NCBI RefSeq assembly: GCF_947504215.1 | Contig: NZ_CANNGO010000010.1 | Coordinates: forward strand, 1-64,000 | Origin: an uncultured Ruegeria sp. | GTDB lineage: Bacteria > Pseudomonadota > Alphaproteobacteria > Rhodobacterales > Rhodobacteraceae | Direction: 5' to 3' | Length of the DNA stretch: 64,000 bases | Program-made: the position numbers and the translations under genes | The notes under the pieces: generated by a model | What the model saw: the letters and a program-made list of their open reading frames with translations, nothing else | Databases searched by the model: none | What the model was told of the DNA's origin: nothing | In this document: in pieces, positions 24,660 to 43,556 of the stretch | Position numbering within the stretch: the stretch's first letter is position 1 | How the letters are laid out: every line of letters starts with the position of its first letter

Positions 24660-26135
24660 TCAACGCGCGGCAGACCTTGATCGCTGAGGCATGGCACCCG
24701 TGATCTCACGCAGCGCGTCAGGCAGCTTTGGATGCTTGAAGACAAAGCCATTCCGCTGCAACAAAGCTGGCAAGACACGTTGACCGCTTAGCATGGTTTC
24801 CCGCCCCATTTCTCCCAATAGGATCGTCAGCACACAGGCCGGAAACCGAAAGATGGTCGGGCGGTGCAAGGCCGTGGCAAGCGCCTGCGTGAACGCCTTG
24901 TTTCGAACAGGAAAGGGTGCGGTCGCGTTGACCGGGCCTGAAAGGTCTTTTTGCGACAGCGAGAAGGCAATAATACGCACCAAATCGTCAAGTTCAATCC
25001 ACGACATCCATTGCTGTCCATTGCCCAGAGCCCCTCCTCCGCCGAATTCAAAGGGGGTCAGCAACCTCGACAACATCCCCCCTTCGACCCCCAGAACAAG
25101 CCCGATGCGCAAAACAACAACACGCACGCCCAGTGCCTTGATTTTATTGGCGGACCCTTCCCATGCGTCGCACACATCATGCACAAATGCAGGTGCAGGG
25201 CTTGATGTTTCGGACAGTTCCTCATCGCCGCGCAACCCGTACCAACCGACGGCGGAACCGTTGATCAAGCACTCTGGTTTGTGCTCCAACCGCTGGATCA
25301 ACGCCTCTAGCGCTTTGGTAGTCTCGACCCGGGACTCAACTATTCTCGTTCTTTTTTTCTGCGTCCAAATCCAGTTTGCAACGGGTTCGCCCGCCAGATT
25401 GACGATGGCATCAAAGCAATCCTTACTGTGAACCTGATCAAGGCTGGTGATGACACGAACGGGATCGGGCAGATCATCGGCATTGCGTGGGTCCCGAGTG
25501 ACCACCGTTACAAAATGCCCGCGCGCGACCAGCGCGCTCACCAACCGTTGCCCAATGAAACCCGTACCACCCGTTATCAGGATGCTTTGGCGCGGCGCAA
25601 GATCGGCGACCAGTTCAGCGGGTTCAACGCGCTTCAATCGGTCACTTCGGGCCGATGCCAATAAGTCACGCGCACTGAACAGCCCGACCCCAAGGGCCGA
25701 GGCGGTGGCCATGACACTCCACCAGCCGTAGGTCACTGGAATCAATGCCGTGGGCAGCAACGACCAGGCCGACAGGTACGGCGCAGCCAAGGCCAGAATC
25801 GCACCATAATTCAGCGCGAGAAGCGTGTGGTTAATGCGTTCGCTGCCGGGCAGTTTTCGCGTCATATCTTCTTCGACAAAATCCCAAAGTGTTATGATCA
25901 CTTCAGCGATCAGGATCACCGCAAGACCGAATGTGAAAGCGCCGTGTGGCTCGAACCAGGCAATGCAAAAGAAAATCACGGCGTAAAAGAAATTGCGCAC
26001 ACCATGCAGGCGCAGCTCGGTCTTTTGTGACGCGCGCCACGCCAACCGCTCAGTGCCTTCATGGTGAACAAGCGTATCAAACGCCCCCATAAGCACCTGA
26101 ACCAAGATCAGCGTCCAAAGGATAGGGTTGTCCAT
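24660..26135 (-). CDS. Fusion of an uncharacterised membrane domain with a TIGR01777-type epimerase
   Basis: A 491-residue protein. Residues 1-170 hold about five membrane helices and conserved-looking polar residues near the membrane (HHEGTERLAWR, ELRLHGVRN, LWDFVEED, ERINHTLL). Residues 184-485 are a short-chain dehydrogenase-like domain with the Rossmann motif ITGGTGFIGQRLVSALV, the NLAGEPVANW segment and the SAVGWYG segment typical of the TIGR01777/YfcH sugar-nucleotide epimerase family. A strong ribosome site (AGGAGT) precedes the ATG at 26135. It is 9 bases downstream of the DUF4166 gene, so they form an operon. The reaction is unknown. Confidence 0.85.
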   Translation of the reverse strand: MDNPILWTLILVQVLMGAFDTLVHHEGTERLAWRASQKTELRLHGVRNFFYAVIFFCIAWFEPHGAFTFGLAVILIAEVIITLWDFVEEDMTRKLPGSERINHTLLALNYGAILALAAPYLSAWSLLPTALIPVTYGWWSVMATASALGVGLFSARDLLASARSDRLKRVEPAELVADLAPRQSILITGGTGFIGQRLVSALVARGHFVTVVTRDPRNADDLPDPVRVITSLDQVHSKDCFDAIVNLAGEPVANWIWTQKKRTRIVESRVETTKALEALIQRLEHKPECLINGSAVGWYGLRGDEELSETSSPAPAFVHDVCDAWEGSANKIKALGVRVVVLRIGLVLGVEGGMLSRLLTPFEFGGGGALGNGQQWMSWIELDDLVRIIAFSLSQKDLSGPVNATAPFPVRNKAFTQALATALHRPTIFRFPACVLTILLGEMGRETMLSGQRVLPALLQRNGFVFKHPKLPDALREITGAMPQRSRSAAR

Positions 26136-26144
26136 GAGAAACTC

Positions 26145-26786
26145 CTATGTGTCGTGAAACAGTGCATCCTGCTGGATCAGTTCGCCAAACAGGTTGCTGC
26201 TAAGGGTCAATGAGAAGAGAAACCGCGCATTACCAAGATCCTGATGCGCAATGGTCAAGGACCCGGGTTGCAGCCAGGATGGAAGCCTGACCTTCACGCG
26301 TCCAAGTTTCAGAAAGTAGTGATCGCTTTCAAAGTAGATGCCCCTGTGATCTGTGCGGACACGCAACGCGATGCCGATCCCACGGCCAATGTATTCTTCA
26401 ACACCTGTCGGCCCGGAAAATCTCTTTGAGCTGTGTATCACCTGCGGAAAACCCGCCGCGCGCCCATATTGGCGTATCCAGAACTGGCCGCTGGCGGCGC
26501 AATCCTCGGTCACGGCGACAACGGCAGGCTGATCGACGCAAGACGTGTCATACGGCAATGGCCCTCCAACCAACCGGGCCAGATGGGCGAGAACACGACC
26601 GATCAAAGACATGCGCATGGCGGTTACCTTTCCCTGATAGACCACGCTTGCCCCGCCGGTCAGGCGATGCCCAAAGCGCTTACGCACCGGTTTTGGCAAG
26701 GCGTTCCAGGCGTGAGCGCCGACGAGGCCACGGAAGCGGCTGTCTTTGATGATCTCTAAATCGGTGGGCATCTGAGATTGCTTCAT
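26145..26786 (-). CDS. DUF4166 family protein
   Basis: A 213-residue protein whose pattern of short conserved aromatic and Gly-containing segments (for example FGHRLTGGASVVYQG and RVRTDHRGIYFES) fits DUF4166, a family often found next to or fused with TIGR01777/DoxX-type oxidoreductases. No signal peptide. AGGAGATGG precedes the ATG. It lies between the MarR-type regulator and the epimerase, on the same strand, and its upstream region carries a copy of the regulator dyad. Function unknown. Confidence 0.75.
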   Translation of the reverse strand: MKQSQMPTDLEIIKDSRFRGLVGAHAWNALPKPVRKRFGHRLTGGASVVYQGKVTAMRMSLIGRVLAHLARLVGGPLPYDTSCVDQPAVVAVTEDCAASGQFWIRQYGRAAGFPQVIHSSKRFSGPTGVEEYIGRGIGIALRVRTDHRGIYFESDHYFLKLGRVKVRLPSWLQPGSLTIAHQDLGNARFLFSLTLSSNLFGELIQQDALFHDT

Positions 26787-26799
26787 TTGCCATCTCCTG

Positions 26800-26811
26800 C
26801 TGATTTATCAG
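26800..26811. promoter_or_regulatory. Secondary dyad CTGATTTATCAG upstream of the DUF4166 gene
   Basis: A 12-base inverted repeat (CTGAT-TT-ATCAG) between the main dyad and the ribosome site of the DUF4166 gene. It may be a small mRNA hairpin or an extra half-site. Weak evidence alone. Confidence 0.4.
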
Positions 26812-26814
26812 TAA

Positions 26815-26832
26815 TTTCTGTATTAAGAGAAA
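26815..26832 (-). promoter_or_regulatory. Putative operator 2 of the regulator, upstream of DUF4166 gene
   Basis: On the minus strand TTTCTCTTAATACAGAAA, matching the dyad over the regulator start at 15 of 18 positions. It lies 29 bases upstream of the DUF4166 start codon, so a bound protein here would block transcription of the DUF4166-epimerase operon. Confidence 0.65.
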
Positions 26833-26850
26833 TTGTTGATCAAAAAAATT

Positions 26851-27411
26851 CTACTCGTTCTTTTTGCTGCCAACCTGAAGAAGTGAGAGTATTTTGTCGC
26901 CCATTTTCATCAGCATCGAGAGCTTCGTCTTAGGGACCCGCAGCATTTGTGCCGACCAATGGTCCGCCGTATTCAGAAAGTCCTGCATGCTTCGCATCCG
27001 ATCCAAGACAACCGGGTGCAGATTTGGCTCATCTGCTGCTTGGTTGATGCAGACATCTATCGCCCGCATCGCCGGGTCAATTTCACGCTCTTTGCGCCCT
27101 TTGGCGATCAGCAAGGCCATTTCCCACACATCAGTTTCGGCCTCAAAGTGCTCTCTGCGATCACCTGCAACCGGCACACGATGGATCAGCCGCCAGCCGA
27201 CAAGCTCTTTCAGCGAGTTCGAGACGTTCGAGCGTGCGATCCCCAATTCATCAGAGATCTGCTCGGCATTAAGTGGCGTTTCGCTAAGATACAAAAGCGC
27301 ATGTACCTGCGCCACGGAACGGTTCACGCCCCACTGGCTGCCCATATCGCCCCAATAAAGGATAAACTTGGATTTGGCCGAGCCGCTGGATATTTCACTT
27401 ATTTCTGTCAT
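26851..27411 (-). CDS. GbsR/MarR-type transcriptional regulator
   Basis: A 186-residue protein with a winged helix-turn-helix (about residues 35-100), recognition region EQISDELGIARSNVSNSLKE and a wing near RVPVAGDRREHF. It resembles the GbsR branch of the MarR superfamily. I choose the ATG at 27411; the longer frame adds 20 residues that do not fit the family. No ribosome site precedes this ATG, and a -35/-10 pair places the transcript start at or next to it, so the message may be leaderless. A perfect dyad covers the start codon, suggesting autoregulation. Confidence 0.85.
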   Translation of the reverse strand: MTEISEISSGSAKSKFILYWGDMGSQWGVNRSVAQVHALLYLSETPLNAEQISDELGIARSNVSNSLKELVGWRLIHRVPVAGDRREHFEAETDVWEMALLIAKGRKEREIDPAMRAIDVCINQAADEPNLHPVVLDRMRSMQDFLNTADHWSAQMLRVPKTKLSMLMKMGDKILSLLQVGSKKNE

Positions 27412-27419
27412 AACAGAAA
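27402..27419 (-). promoter_or_regulatory. Putative operator 1, covering the regulator start codon
   Basis: A perfect inverted repeat TTTCTGT-N4-ACAGAAA; on the minus strand it reads TTTCTGTTATGACAGAAA, with the regulator ATG in the centre. A near-copy lies upstream of the next gene at 26815-26832. The placement predicts direct repression of its own gene. Confidence 0.7.
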
Positions 27420-27446
27420 GATTAGATATCAACAAACCAAAGTCAA
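27419..27446 (-). promoter_or_regulatory. Predicted promoter of the regulator gene
   Basis: On the minus strand a -35-like TTGACT (27441-27446), a 16-base spacer, and a -10-like TAATCT (27419-27424). The distance from the -10 to the ATG is about 8 bases, so transcription would begin at the start codon. Prediction by eye only. Confidence 0.5.
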
Positions 27447-27495
27447 GATCGCCTGACCCGACTGCGCGCAAATGTCCGAATAAGAGGGAGCATAC

Positions 27496-27529
27496 AAAAA
27501 AGCTTGCCGGTGTTTCCCGGCAAGCTTTT
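27496..27529 (-). terminator. Rho-independent terminator of ileS
   Basis: Thirteen-base perfect stem AAAAGCTTGCCGG / CCGGCAAGCTTTT with a six-base loop, followed on the minus strand by a run of T residues. It lies 36 bases beyond the ileS stop and insulates the regulator from ileS read-through. Confidence 0.92.
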
Positions 27530-27565
27530 GTTTTAGTTGGCTAGATAAAAGCGGAAATGAAAAGC

Positions 27566-30526
27566 TCAGCTCAATGCTTCGTCGCAACGCCCGCAGACAC
27601 CGTCATGAGTGTGACGCCCCACATCAGGCAGAATTTTCCAGCAGCGCTGACACTTTGCGCCTTCGGCTTTTTCGAACACAACGCCCACGCCTTCGATTTC
27701 TGGCACCCGGAACGCTTCGGCAGGGGCCGGATCACCTGTCACGGTCAAGCCAGACGTGATGCACATGTCATCCGCGTCAAAGGTGGCCAGCAAGGCGCGC
27801 GTTTCCTCGTCATCGACATGCACAATCGGTGCTGCCTCAAGGCTGGAGCCAATCACCTTATCCTGGCGCTGAACCTCCAACGCAGCGGTCACGGCGCGGC
27901 GCACACGGCGGATCTTGGCCATGCCTGCCTCAAGCTCGGCATTGCGCCAATCAGCCGGAGTATCGGGGAAGTCCACCAGATGGACCGAGCTGTTGTCACC
28001 CGGGAACCGCTCCAACCAAACCTCTTCCATGGTGAAGACCAGAACCGGCGCCAGCCATGTGGTCAGGCGGTGAAACAGGATGTCCAGAACGGTGCGCGCC
28101 GCGCGTCGGCGCAGGTTGTTACCGTCGCAGTACAACGCATCCTTCCGGACGTCGAAGTAAAAGGACGACAAATCGACAGTCGCAAACGTGAAGACTGCGC
28201 TGAAGACACCCTGGAAATCGAAGGACGCATAGCCTTTGCGCACCTGCTCATCCAGATCAGCCAAACGGCTAAGCACCCAGCGCTCCAGACGCGGCATATC
28301 CTTGGGGTCGATGCGATCGGCTTCGGTGAAGTCAGCCAACGAGCCCAGCATAAACCGCATGGTGTTTCGCAACCGGCGATAGCTGTCGGCGGTGCCTTTC
28401 AGAATCTCCGGCCCGATCCGCTGGTCGGCGGTGTAATCGGTCTGGGCCACCCACAGGCGCAGGATGTCAGCTCCGTATTGCTTGATGACCTCTTCAGGCA
28501 CGATGGTGTTGCCCAGAGATTTGGACATCTTGTTGCCCTTGGCGTCCAGCGTGAAGCCGTGGGTCACCACATTGCGATACGGCGCACGACCTTTTGTTCC
28601 GCAGGCCTGCAGCATGGACGAATGGAACCAACCACGGTGCTGGTCAGTGCCCTCCATGTAGACGTCGGCGATGCCGTCTTCGGTCCCGTCCTCACGGTCG
28701 CGCAAAACGAAGGCGTGGGTCGAACCGGAATCGAACCACACGTCCAGAACGTCAAAGACTTGGTTCCAATCGTCTGGATTGTAGTCATTGCCTAGGAACC
28801 GTTCCTTGGCACCTTCAACGTACCAGCAATCGGCGCCATCCTGTTCAAAAGCCTCTTTGACGCGCGCATTCACTGCTGGGTCACGCAGCAAGAAGTCGGG
28901 ATCAGTCGGCAGAGCGCCCTTCTTGGTGAAACAGGTCAGCGGCACACCCCAGGCGCGCTGGCGCGACAGAACCCAATCCGGGCGGGCTTCGATCATGGAG
29001 TACAGACGATTACGGCCCGTCTTAGGAGTCCATTTCACCAACTCGTCGATCGAGCGCAGCGCGCGTTCGCGGATGGTGTCGCCCATCTCGCCCATACCGT
29101 CATCCAGTTTGCGGTCAACGGATGCAAACCACTGCGGCGTGTTGCGATAGATGATCGGAGCTTTCGAGCGCCACGAATGCGGATAGCTGTGCTTGATCTT
29201 ACCACGCGCCAGCAGCCCGCCCACCTCGACAAGCTTATCGATGACGGCTTTGTTCGCGTCACCCTCTCCCCCCTTACGGGACAGGATGTATTTGCCGCCA
29301 AAGAATGGCAGATCGGCACGGAATGAGCCGTCATCCATCACGTTATAGGTGATGACCTGTTCCAGCATGCCCAGATCGCGGTACAGCTCGAATTCTTCCA
29401 TACCATGCGAAGGCGCGCAGTGAACGAAGCCGGTGCCCTCGGTGTCGGTCACAAACTCAGCCGCGCGGAAATCGCGGATGTCGTCCCATTCGCCGTTGCC
29501 ACCTTCGGCACCGGCCAATGGGTGGGTCAAGCTGACGCTCGCCAACTCATCTGCGGTAACGCCACGGACACGTGTCCACTGATCGTCGTTCAGGCGCGCG
29601 CGACCTAGCACGTCAGCAGCCAGATTGTCAGCAAGCAGAAATCTGTCGCCTGCACTTGCCCAGCACTCGTCCGGCGCGTCGGTGACTTCGTACAAGCCGT
29701 ACGAAATATCCTTCCCATAAACCACCGCCTTGTTGGATGGCATGGTCCAGGGCGTCGTGGTCCAGATCACAACGCAAGACCCGTCCAGATCGCTCAGCGG
29801 CTGCACCTGCCCCACCTCGCCAGTGACCGGCGGCGTGGTTTCGTTCAGCAGCACCTTGAACTTCACCCAAATGGTGAAGCTTTCCTTGTCGTGGTATTCA
29901 ACCTCGGCCTCTGCCAGAGCCGTCTTCTCGATCGGCGACCACATAACGGGTTTCGAGCCCTGATAAAGCGTACCGTTCATCAGGAACTTCATGAACTCAT
30001 CGGCGATCACGGCCTCGGCGTGATAGTCCATCGTGATATAAGGATCGGGCCAGTTGCCGGTGATGCCCAGACGCTTGAACTCCTCGCGCTGGATATCGAT
30101 CCAGCCCTCGGCGAACTTGCGGCATTCCTGACGGAAGTCGACGATGCTCACCTCATCCTTGTTCTTACCCTTCTTTCGGTACTGCTCTTCGATCTTCCAT
30201 TCGATCGGAAGACCGTGGCAATCCCAGCCCGGCACATAGCGCGCATCGTGACCCATCATCTGATGGCTGCGTACAATCATGTCTTTGATGGTCTTGTTCA
30301 GCGCGTGACCGATATGCAGATGACCGTTGGCATAGGGCGGGCCGTCATGCAGTGTGAAGGGCTTACGGCCCTGTTTTTCACGCAGTCGGTCATAAACACC
30401 GATAGTCTCCCAGCGCTCTAGCCAGTTCGGCTCGCGCTTGGGCAGGCCAGCGCGCATCGGAAAGTCGGTTTTGGGCAGGTTCAGCGTGTCTTTGTAGTCA
30501 GGTGTTTGGGTCGTGTCGGCGCACAT
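27566..30526 (-). CDS. ileS: Isoleucine--tRNA ligase
   Basis: A 986-residue class I aminoacyl-tRNA synthetase that charges tRNA-Ile. The HIGH motif is at residues 71-74 (GHLHIGHALNKT), KMSKS appears in GNKMSKSLGNTI, and the C-terminal zinc-binding pair CQRCW and CGRCDEA is present. The editing CP1 domain lies between. The ATG at 30526 has GAGGACG upstream. The length is normal for the bacterial type 1 enzyme. Confidence 0.98.
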   Translation of the reverse strand: MCADTTQTPDYKDTLNLPKTDFPMRAGLPKREPNWLERWETIGVYDRLREKQGRKPFTLHDGPPYANGHLHIGHALNKTIKDMIVRSHQMMGHDARYVPGWDCHGLPIEWKIEEQYRKKGKNKDEVSIVDFRQECRKFAEGWIDIQREEFKRLGITGNWPDPYITMDYHAEAVIADEFMKFLMNGTLYQGSKPVMWSPIEKTALAEAEVEYHDKESFTIWVKFKVLLNETTPPVTGEVGQVQPLSDLDGSCVVIWTTTPWTMPSNKAVVYGKDISYGLYEVTDAPDECWASAGDRFLLADNLAADVLGRARLNDDQWTRVRGVTADELASVSLTHPLAGAEGGNGEWDDIRDFRAAEFVTDTEGTGFVHCAPSHGMEEFELYRDLGMLEQVITYNVMDDGSFRADLPFFGGKYILSRKGGEGDANKAVIDKLVEVGGLLARGKIKHSYPHSWRSKAPIIYRNTPQWFASVDRKLDDGMGEMGDTIRERALRSIDELVKWTPKTGRNRLYSMIEARPDWVLSRQRAWGVPLTCFTKKGALPTDPDFLLRDPAVNARVKEAFEQDGADCWYVEGAKERFLGNDYNPDDWNQVFDVLDVWFDSGSTHAFVLRDREDGTEDGIADVYMEGTDQHRGWFHSSMLQACGTKGRAPYRNVVTHGFTLDAKGNKMSKSLGNTIVPEEVIKQYGADILRLWVAQTDYTADQRIGPEILKGTADSYRRLRNTMRFMLGSLADFTEADRIDPKDMPRLERWVLSRLADLDEQVRKGYASFDFQGVFSAVFTFATVDLSSFYFDVRKDALYCDGNNLRRRAARTVLDILFHRLTTWLAPVLVFTMEEVWLERFPGDNSSVHLVDFPDTPADWRNAELEAGMAKIRRVRRAVTAALEVQRQDKVIGSSLEAAPIVHVDDEETRALLATFDADDMCITSGLTVTGDPAPAEAFRVPEIEGVGVVFEKAEGAKCQRCWKILPDVGRHTHDGVCGRCDEALS

Positions 30527-42320: not shown

Positions 42321-43556
42321 TCAGACTTTTTCCTGCGTGTGCTTTTTCAACTCGGCCCGCGCCACCTGGCGGCGATGCACCGCATCCGGTCCATCCGCCA
42401 ACCGCAGCGTCCGTACATGGGTCCACGCCGTCGCCAAAGGTGTATCCTGGCTGACCCCTTGCCCGCCGAACATCTGCACGGCCTCATCGATGACTTTCAG
42501 CGCAACCCGAGGTGCAACCACCTTGATCTGGCTGATCCACGGGGCGGCCGCGCGGGCGTCGCCCTGATCCATGTACCAAGCAGCCTTGAGACACAGCAGG
42601 CGGGCCATCTCGATCTCCATCCGGCATTCGGCGATGATGTCGAAATTAGCACCCAGCTGGGCCAGTTTTTTGCCAAATGCCTCACGTTGCATGGCCCGTT
42701 TGCACATCTGGGCCAACGCGCTTTCAGCCTGTCCGATGGCACGCATGCAGTGGTGAATACGGCCCGGTCCCAGACGGCCCTGCGCGATTTCAAAACCGCG
42801 TCCCTCGCCCAGCAGGATGTTTTCAGCTGGTACGCGGACGTTTGTGAACCGGATATGCATATGACCATGGGGGGCATCATCATGGCCATAGACGTGCATC
42901 GGCCGCAGAATTTCGATGCCCGCAGCATCCGCAGGAACCACAATCATCGACTGACGCTTGTGCTTGGGCTGTTCCTCGCCGCCGGTCTTGACCATAACAA
43001 TGTAGACTTTGCATCGCGGGTCACCGGCCCCCGAAGACCACCATTTTTCGCCATTCAGCACATAGTCGTCCCCGTCCCGCACACAGGACATCGCCACATT
43101 GGTTGCATCAGACGATGCCACATCTGGTTCGGTCATCAAATAAGCAGACCGGATTTGACCCTCGAGCAGTGGCTTAAGCCACTGTTCCTTCATCTTTTCG
43201 GTACCGTAGCGTTCAAATACTTCCATATTGCCGGTATCGGGGGCCGAGCAGTTGAACACCTCAGCACCCAAGGGCGTCTTGCCCATTTCCTCGGCAAAAT
43301 ACGCATACTCGACCGTCGTCAGCCCAAATCCCCTCTCGCTGTCGGTCAGCCAGAAGTTCCAAAGCCCCGCCGCCTTGGCTTTGGCTTTCAAACCCTCAAG
43401 GATTTCGGCCTGGCGGTCGGTGTATTGCCACCGGTCGCCTTTGTCGATTTCGGCCTGATACTCCTCTTCAAGCGGCATGATCTCGTCCCGGACCATATCG
43501 GCAACGCGTTGCAAAAGCGCGCGGTTTTCCTCGCGCAGAACAAACGACATATTCAT
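42321..43556 (-). CDS. Acyl-CoA dehydrogenase
   Basis: A 411-residue FAD-dependent dehydrogenase that introduces a 2,3-double bond into acyl-CoA. The layout is three-domain: N-terminal helices, a central beta domain with the substrate- and FAD-facing [18 protein letters not shown] stretch, and the C-terminal helical domain. I place the start at the ATG at 43556 ([10 protein letters not shown]), which has AGGAGG upstream; a longer frame lacks one. The chain-length preference is not known. Confidence 0.93.

Follow-up and report, generated by a model that had tools for sequence, protein, structure and literature searches.

The stretch of DNA analyzed here (64,000 nucleotides, referred to below as the window) likely encodes a GbsR/MarR-type autorepressor, probably translated from a leaderless mRNA, that represses both its own gene and a linked operon through two related operators, O1 and O2. 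In the proposed mechanism the repressor, presumably as a dimer, would shut its own promoter by binding O1, which is predicted to cover the −10 region, the transcript start (+1) and the start codon and would leave RNA polymerase unable to open the promoter. Once a signal released the repressor, an mRNA starting at the A of the ATG would be made and translated without leader or ribosome site. The first codons of the gene, ATG ACA GAA AT-, would be translated operator DNA, with the N-terminal MTEI as a by-product of the operator. O2, which is less symmetrical, would let the same protein hold down an operon of a DUF4166 gene and an SDR gene, which has an ordinary ribosome site, either by blocking a promoter at O2 or by blocking readthrough from the first promoter. 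We infer binding, repression, the leaderless start and release by a ligand from what is observed of sequence, position and conservation. A single short stretch of DNA seems to combine the roles of switch, transcript start and start codon, and it would make a clean case of DNA that is both operator and coding sequence.

Layout of the Locus and Identity of the Regulator

All elements described in this section lie on the minus strand, along which the sequence reads TTGACT, 16 bases, TAATCT, TTCTGTT and the regulator ATG. The regulator gene is an open reading frame of 186 aa (26851..27411) whose start codon falls within the putative operator O1, with the core dyad TTTCTGTTATGACAGAAA at 27402..27419 and the dyad axis between the A (27411) and the T of the ATG. 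The putative operator O2, TTTCTCTTAATACAGAAA (26815..26832), stands before the DUF4166 gene (213 aa, 26145..26786; PF13761, E 6.6e-35), whose ribosome site AGGAGA can be read from the sequence at 26793..26798, and next comes the SDR gene (491 aa, 24660..26135) with profile matches to the TIGR01777/DUF1731 domain; the N-terminal stretch ahead of this domain looks membrane-embedded by eye. The two 18-bp dyads that the initial annotation had placed over the regulator ATG and before DUF4166 are present as described, with 15 of 18 bases equal. Among named relatives Ruegeria sp. EL01 is the nearest, its regulator being 96% identical to this one, and a taxonomy look-up places Ruegeria in the Roseobacteraceae, Rhodobacterales.

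The family assignments made at the outset for the regulator and its target, the latter by PF13761, are borne out. The regulator matches MarR_2 in Pfam (E 3.3e-12) and Mj223 (1ku9) both by profile, with a value of 5.2e-18 over residues 11–145, and by fold, with 1ku9 as the best Foldseek match (E 1.2e-9, TM 0.58/0.69); it has the GbsR-type winged-helix MarR-like domain together with a helical dimerisation region as in Mj223. The score against the choline regulator CudC (NF047500) was 45.6 bits, far below the curated cut-off of 218, and a TetR-type domain, as in AcuR proper, is absent among the ten Pfam hits listed, the best of which is MarR_2. The neighbors of the regulator gene are not osmostress genes. 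In the presumed recognition helix (residues 60–72) the residues ARSNVS occur in 63 of 64 close sequences, the one exception being V63I, and in all 27 distant homologues compared, so that the comparison of recognition helices which had been proposed as a check finds ARSNVS common to the close set and to the operator-sharing sister clade described below.

Conservation of the Dyad at the Start Codon

By symmetry the O1 dyad alone is at chance level in a 64-kb window: the window has 11 18-mers in which 8 or more of the 9 pairs match, and 40 random windows have 9.75 on average. The case for O1 rests on conservation. To assess it we used 66 relatives found with six peptide patterns, none of which came from the N-terminus. 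The window and 63 of these relatives make up the 64 sequences used. Three relatives were dropped: L109 lacks a dyad at the start, L112 has a broken frame and its dyad 18 nt past the aligned start, and L114 is 33% identical. The alignment of L097 and L103 began at residue 16, so the ATG in the dyad was taken as their start, and the motif was built from 62 sequences with these two left out.

The 20-mer ATTTCTGTYATGACAGAAAT, and with it the O1 dyad, is centered on the regulator start codon in 64/64, and 12 of its 20 columns are invariant across these sequences, 4 of them in the non-coding half. Conservation of the dyads upstream of orthologues had been set as a test of the original proposal, which comes through it with O1 start-codon-centered in all 64 and O2 kept in 48 of the 64. 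The start codon itself is ATG in 62/64 and ATA in the other two, L068 (at 4001) and L094 (at 1716), where the ATA makes the dyad a perfect palindrome; the 81 nt upstream of the ATA in L094 hold no in-frame ATG, GTG or TTG. These ATA codons may be real starts or sequencing errors, and as leaderless starts they would be poor.

Codon choice shows the same constraint. Codon 2 is ACA in 64/64, vs. 71 of the 413 other threonine codons of the same genes, and codon 3 is GAA in 64/64, vs. 449/835 in the rest of the same genes, although the 64 sequences are related, so that such counts are not independent events and the very small P values of the codon bias overstate independence. Because codon 2 is fixed as ACA, the conserved thing is the DNA and not the protein. 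Residues 1–6 of the regulator have a pLDDT below 50 in the structure model.

Matches to the half-site ACAGAAA peak at offsets 3 and 12 in first and second sites and also at offset 21 in the second sites of the close set. Those to TTTCTGT have a peak at −8 and, in first sites, another at −17 that is strongest in the sister clade (0.78). Positions 12–18 of O1 are coding, yet the same repeat occurs in the non-coding second site. The operator seems to be longer than the core dyad, about 36 bp with the outer half-site repeats that stand 9 bp beyond it; from the match peaks at −17 and 12 the extended O1 would be at 27393..27428 (minus strand), and more than one dimer may be bound per operator. The recurrence of half-sites every 9 bp outward from the dyad (3, 12, 21; −8, −17) is an odd spacing for one dimer.

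Within the 4.53-Mb genome the exact shared pattern TTTCTNTTANNACAGAAA occurs in 2 places, both at this locus. At most 3 mismatches to TTTCTGTNATNACAGAAA are found at 19 genome places, vs. 10 for a reversed control, and at most 2 mismatches at O1, O2 and one place inside a 471-codon open frame. A search of the regulator's own genome for a wider regulon at up to 3 mismatches gave beyond O1 and O2 only this one place with 2 mismatches or fewer, in a coding region.

Among family genomes the exact dyad TTTCTGTNATNACAGAAA is present in 20 of 394, and for all 19 other than the window's own a regulator homologue lies in the stretch fetched beside the dyad. Within the genus the regulator is patchy: 17 of 54 genomes have a match, which in one case is just 40% identical. 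The ATG-centered form of the dyad is found in 9 of 385 class genomes. Seven of the eight other class genomes have regulator and DUF4166 matches (the latter weak in L142), and the regulator frame opens at the dyad ATG in 6 of these 7; L143, with the dyad in opposite orientation, is not among the 6. The eighth (L148, genome G782, dyad at about 1500) reads TTGACA, the dyad, a 7-codon frame MTEINEI and then DUF4166. The only regulator match in G782 is on another contig, where it has its own operator of the same type and starts further down; it looks as though a local regulator had been lost and another had taken over.

Promoter and Start of the Regulator Transcript

The sequence TTGAC starts exactly 35 nt upstream of the start-codon A in 52 of the 64 sequences and 36 nt upstream in 2, and the remaining 10 have TTGC or TTGAT in its place. 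The column consensus of the same 64 sequences is (G/T)ATATT from −12 to −7, and there is hardly any conservation from −42 to −37. Taking the start-codon A as +1 gives a standard promoter with 17-bp spacing. On the minus strand of the window this corresponds to a −35 element TTGACT at 27441..27446, a weak −10 element AATCTT at 27418..27423 and a predicted +1 at 27411, the A of the ATG. The promoter pair first proposed, TTGACT and TAATCT separated by 16 bases, holds as far as the letters are concerned; the −10 conserved by column is instead the hexamer at 17-bp spacing. A consensus promoter scan of 26000–27700 reported no promoter, which is explained by a −10 in the window that agrees with the consensus at 3 of 6 positions only.

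The earlier statement that the regulator ATG has no ribosome site stands, as none is seen in the window and the longest match among the orthologues is 4 nt in just 1 of 64; 33 have 3 nt and 30 have none. In 7 orthologues an earlier start is impossible, since the frame has a stop 9–18 nt upstream of the start and no start codon in between. Promoter spacing, codon bias and the missing ribosome site all argue for a regulator transcript that begins at the ATG, and the gene is probably leaderless. With +1 predicted on the start codon and no ribosome site, it would fall, by sequence only, in the class of leaderless autoregulated repressors. Leaderless transcripts are documented in this class of bacteria, with 375 such mRNAs described in the alphaproteobacterium Caulobacter crescentus (PMC4117421).

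The Second Operator and Its Operon

A second site with a score above 3 lies downstream of the regulator in 48/64, mostly about 590 nt from the first, and in the other 16 the first site is present and the second absent. The half-sites of O2 are nearly as conserved as those of O1, and its center is not. Across the 48 second sites no conserved −35 was seen upstream of O2 and no canonical promoter could be defined there. What recurs at a fixed distance is an A/T tract of 8–10 bp, mostly ending in TTTG, from −26 to −17 relative to the second dyad in both lineages (48 + 21 sites); in the window it is AATTTTTTTG (26841..26850, minus strand).

For DUF4166, a ribosome-site match of at least 4 nt precedes an ATG 18–70 nt past the second site in 41 of 48 loci, a count that took the best of several ATGs and is more lenient than that for the regulator. 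DUF4166 matches stand beside the regulator in 61 of 66 loci (a partial one in L112), and SDR matches occur in 39 of 66. Some of the loci without SDR have a DCC1-like thiol-disulfide protein together with a fusion of DUF4166 to a saccharopine-dehydrogenase-like domain. Since 16 of the 64 lack O2 and no conserved −35 precedes it, control of the DUF4166-SDR operon by the regulator via O2, separate from the O1 promoter, is a tentative reading of these sequences. The DUF4166 model is a nitrobindin-like or fatty-acid-binding-protein-like barrel (pLDDT 92.7), with a best Foldseek match of E 4.6e-3 and a best VIA-align match of Z 10.0 (143 residues, rmsd 3.8, 8% identity); the predicted barrel is a lead on fold, not on function, and offers a weak hint of a hydrophobic ligand.

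A Sister Clade with the Operator Kept and the Start Moved

The regulator tree separates the clade of the 64 sequences from a second clade of 28 homologues, at about 40% identity. The distant set from which these come consists of 31 loci (L007–L032, L048, L124, L125, L129 and L138), where L007–L032 are the listed loci below four close orthologues, with lower-ranked matches outside the set. L023, L030 and L032 are outside the 28, in a separate clade, and the half-site and recognition-helix comparisons also leave out L028, which gives the 27 used there. The operator has diverged in L023, L030 and L032, and the gene after the regulator looks by eye like cytochrome bd subunit I in these three and like a fatty-acid desaturase in L012, L025 and L048.

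The 28 distant homologues mostly keep a good operator, a tally for which L124, L125, L129 and L138, found through the dyad itself, are not neutral. The start codon has moved: ATG stands at the dyad center in 1/28 of the sister clade vs. 62/64 of the close set, and the first in-frame ATG or GTG past the dyad is 21–40 nt away in 26/28, the others being L011 (GTG at 13) and L017 (ATGs at 0 and 9). A start within the dyad is excluded in 14 of the 28 by an in-frame stop at the dyad center or beyond it. The regulators of this clade have a ribosome-site match of at least 4 nt in 17/28 and of 3 nt in 11. Of the 31 distant loci, 17 have a −35-like element at −32 relative to the dyad, 4 at −33, 3 at −34, 1 at −31 and 1 at −38, and 5 have none, so that in the sister clade it is mostly 3 bp nearer the dyad than in the close set (−35). 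An axis on the start codon in 64 orthologues, with the start moved in the sister clade, offers a natural comparison of the role of leaderless translation in autoregulation.

A second operator with a score of 10 or more is present in 21 of the 31 distant loci. At 14 of these 21 the ATG of the next gene, with an open frame of 138–203 codons, sits at the operator center, and at 3 further ones the ATG is 9 nt further on. At least 4 nt of ribosome-site match precede 12 of the 14 genes. The 14 proteins start with MTEI (9), MTEM (3), MTEV (1) or MTET (1); four were scanned, of which L011 is DCC1-like and L014, L015 and L027 are without Pfam match and look by eye like small membrane proteins. Since the ATG of the next gene lies inside the second operator, operator DNA heads proteins unrelated to the regulator.

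Alternative Explanations

The dyad might act in RNA rather than DNA, with a transcript begun further upstream folding a hairpin over the start codon and placing control at translation. The dyad does lie over the start codon, and such a stem could form in a leadered transcript, but TTGAC at −35 and the −10 columns put +1 on the A with no room for an upstream start, the bases are fixed (12 of 20 columns invariant) and not covarying, and the same sequence recurs at second sites that lie off start codons in close orthologues, all of which makes this very unlikely. We give similarly little credence to the dyad being the site of another, global regulator and not of the adjacent gene's product. The pairing of dyad and regulator rests on conservation and co-occurrence; still, a global site is hard to square with a genome in which O1 and O2 are joined by one place with at most 2 mismatches, in coding sequence, with the regulator homologue beside the exact dyad in all 19 other family genomes, or with G782, whose dyad beside DUF4166 is without a local regulator and which has a homologue and an operator of the same type elsewhere. 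Finally, MTEI could be kept for a reason of the protein, with the dyad as a side effect. Although T2 and E3 are invariant in 64/64, this seems extremely improbable, given that the choice of codon is fixed too (ACA in 64/64), that the upstream non-coding half is conserved as well, that similar residues head other proteins with a start in such a dyad, and that the residues concerned (1–6) are those modeled with a pLDDT below 50. We judge these three explanations less likely than the autorepressor model.

An explanation closer to the autorepressor model keeps the operator and gives the mRNA a short leader of a few nt, or a second start upstream, so that it is not strictly leaderless. The weak −10 of the window, with two possible registers (16 or 17 bp), would fit this. 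The fixed spacing over 64 orthologues and the 4-nt ribosome-site match in 1/64 only argue the other way, and we regard a short leader as unlikely.

Relation to Known Systems

Leaderless repressor genes and operators that touch a start codon are each known already. The closest likeness is to AcuR of the acuR-acuI-dddL operon in Rhodobacter sphaeroides, likewise an autoregulated repressor encoded by the first gene of its operon, with an mRNA that starts exactly at the ATG (by 5' RACE there, predicted from sequence here), an inverted-repeat operator overlapping the promoter and a next gene with a ribosome site (PMC3017554). AcuR differs in belonging to the TetR family and in its operator TAATAGAC-n6-GTCTATTA, which overlaps the promoter upstream of the ATG; it also has one promoter, with no second found in the gaps between genes (PMC3017554). 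CrtR of Corynebacterium glutamicum is likewise MarR-type, negatively autoregulated and reported as leaderless, but its target operon is divergent, its site is short and contains TTAA, and it senses isoprenoid pyrophosphates (PMC5401885). For DtxR of C. glutamicum some predicted operators likewise take in start-codon bases and three targets have leaderless transcripts; DtxR is, however, a global iron regulator for which the overlap is incidental to single targets, and the portion of the study considered reports no conserved autoregulatory layout (PMC1382209).

GbsR, OpuAR and other GbsR-type regulators share the Mj223-like winged helix, Mj223 being the template for GbsR, whereas their targets are choline-linked osmostress genes in place of the DUF4166/SDR genes and start-codon operator found here (PMC6207618). 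CvkR, the repressor of a CRISPR-associated transposon, also has a leaderless mRNA, as does its neighboring target, and differs in being of MerR type, with divergent genes and another motif (PMC9938897). Neither DUF4166 nor the dyad sequence, written in five forms, gave a match in searches of the open-access literature, and a dyad axis on a probably leaderless start codon, kept in orthologues and moved in relatives, was not found in the parts of that literature considered.

A broader reading, which we put forward tentatively, is that of a portable start module: one GbsR-type repressor lineage across Alphaproteobacteria would use one dyad, inside which either the regulator (leaderless) or the target (with ribosome site) has its start codon, giving MTEI-type N-termini on unrelated proteins. 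Shifting the start would tune the ratio of regulator to target, and the 9-bp half-sites would let more than one dimer bind.

Other Features of the Window

The upstream neighbor of the regulator is not kept among relatives: of 66 loci, 1 has an ileS match. In the window the gap from ileS to the regulator contains a 13-pair hairpin with a T-rich flank (27498–27529, listed on the plus strand), which may be the ileS terminator. The sole perfect 18-bp palindrome in the 64-kb window is CAGTGGCTTAAGCCACTG, at 43167–43184.
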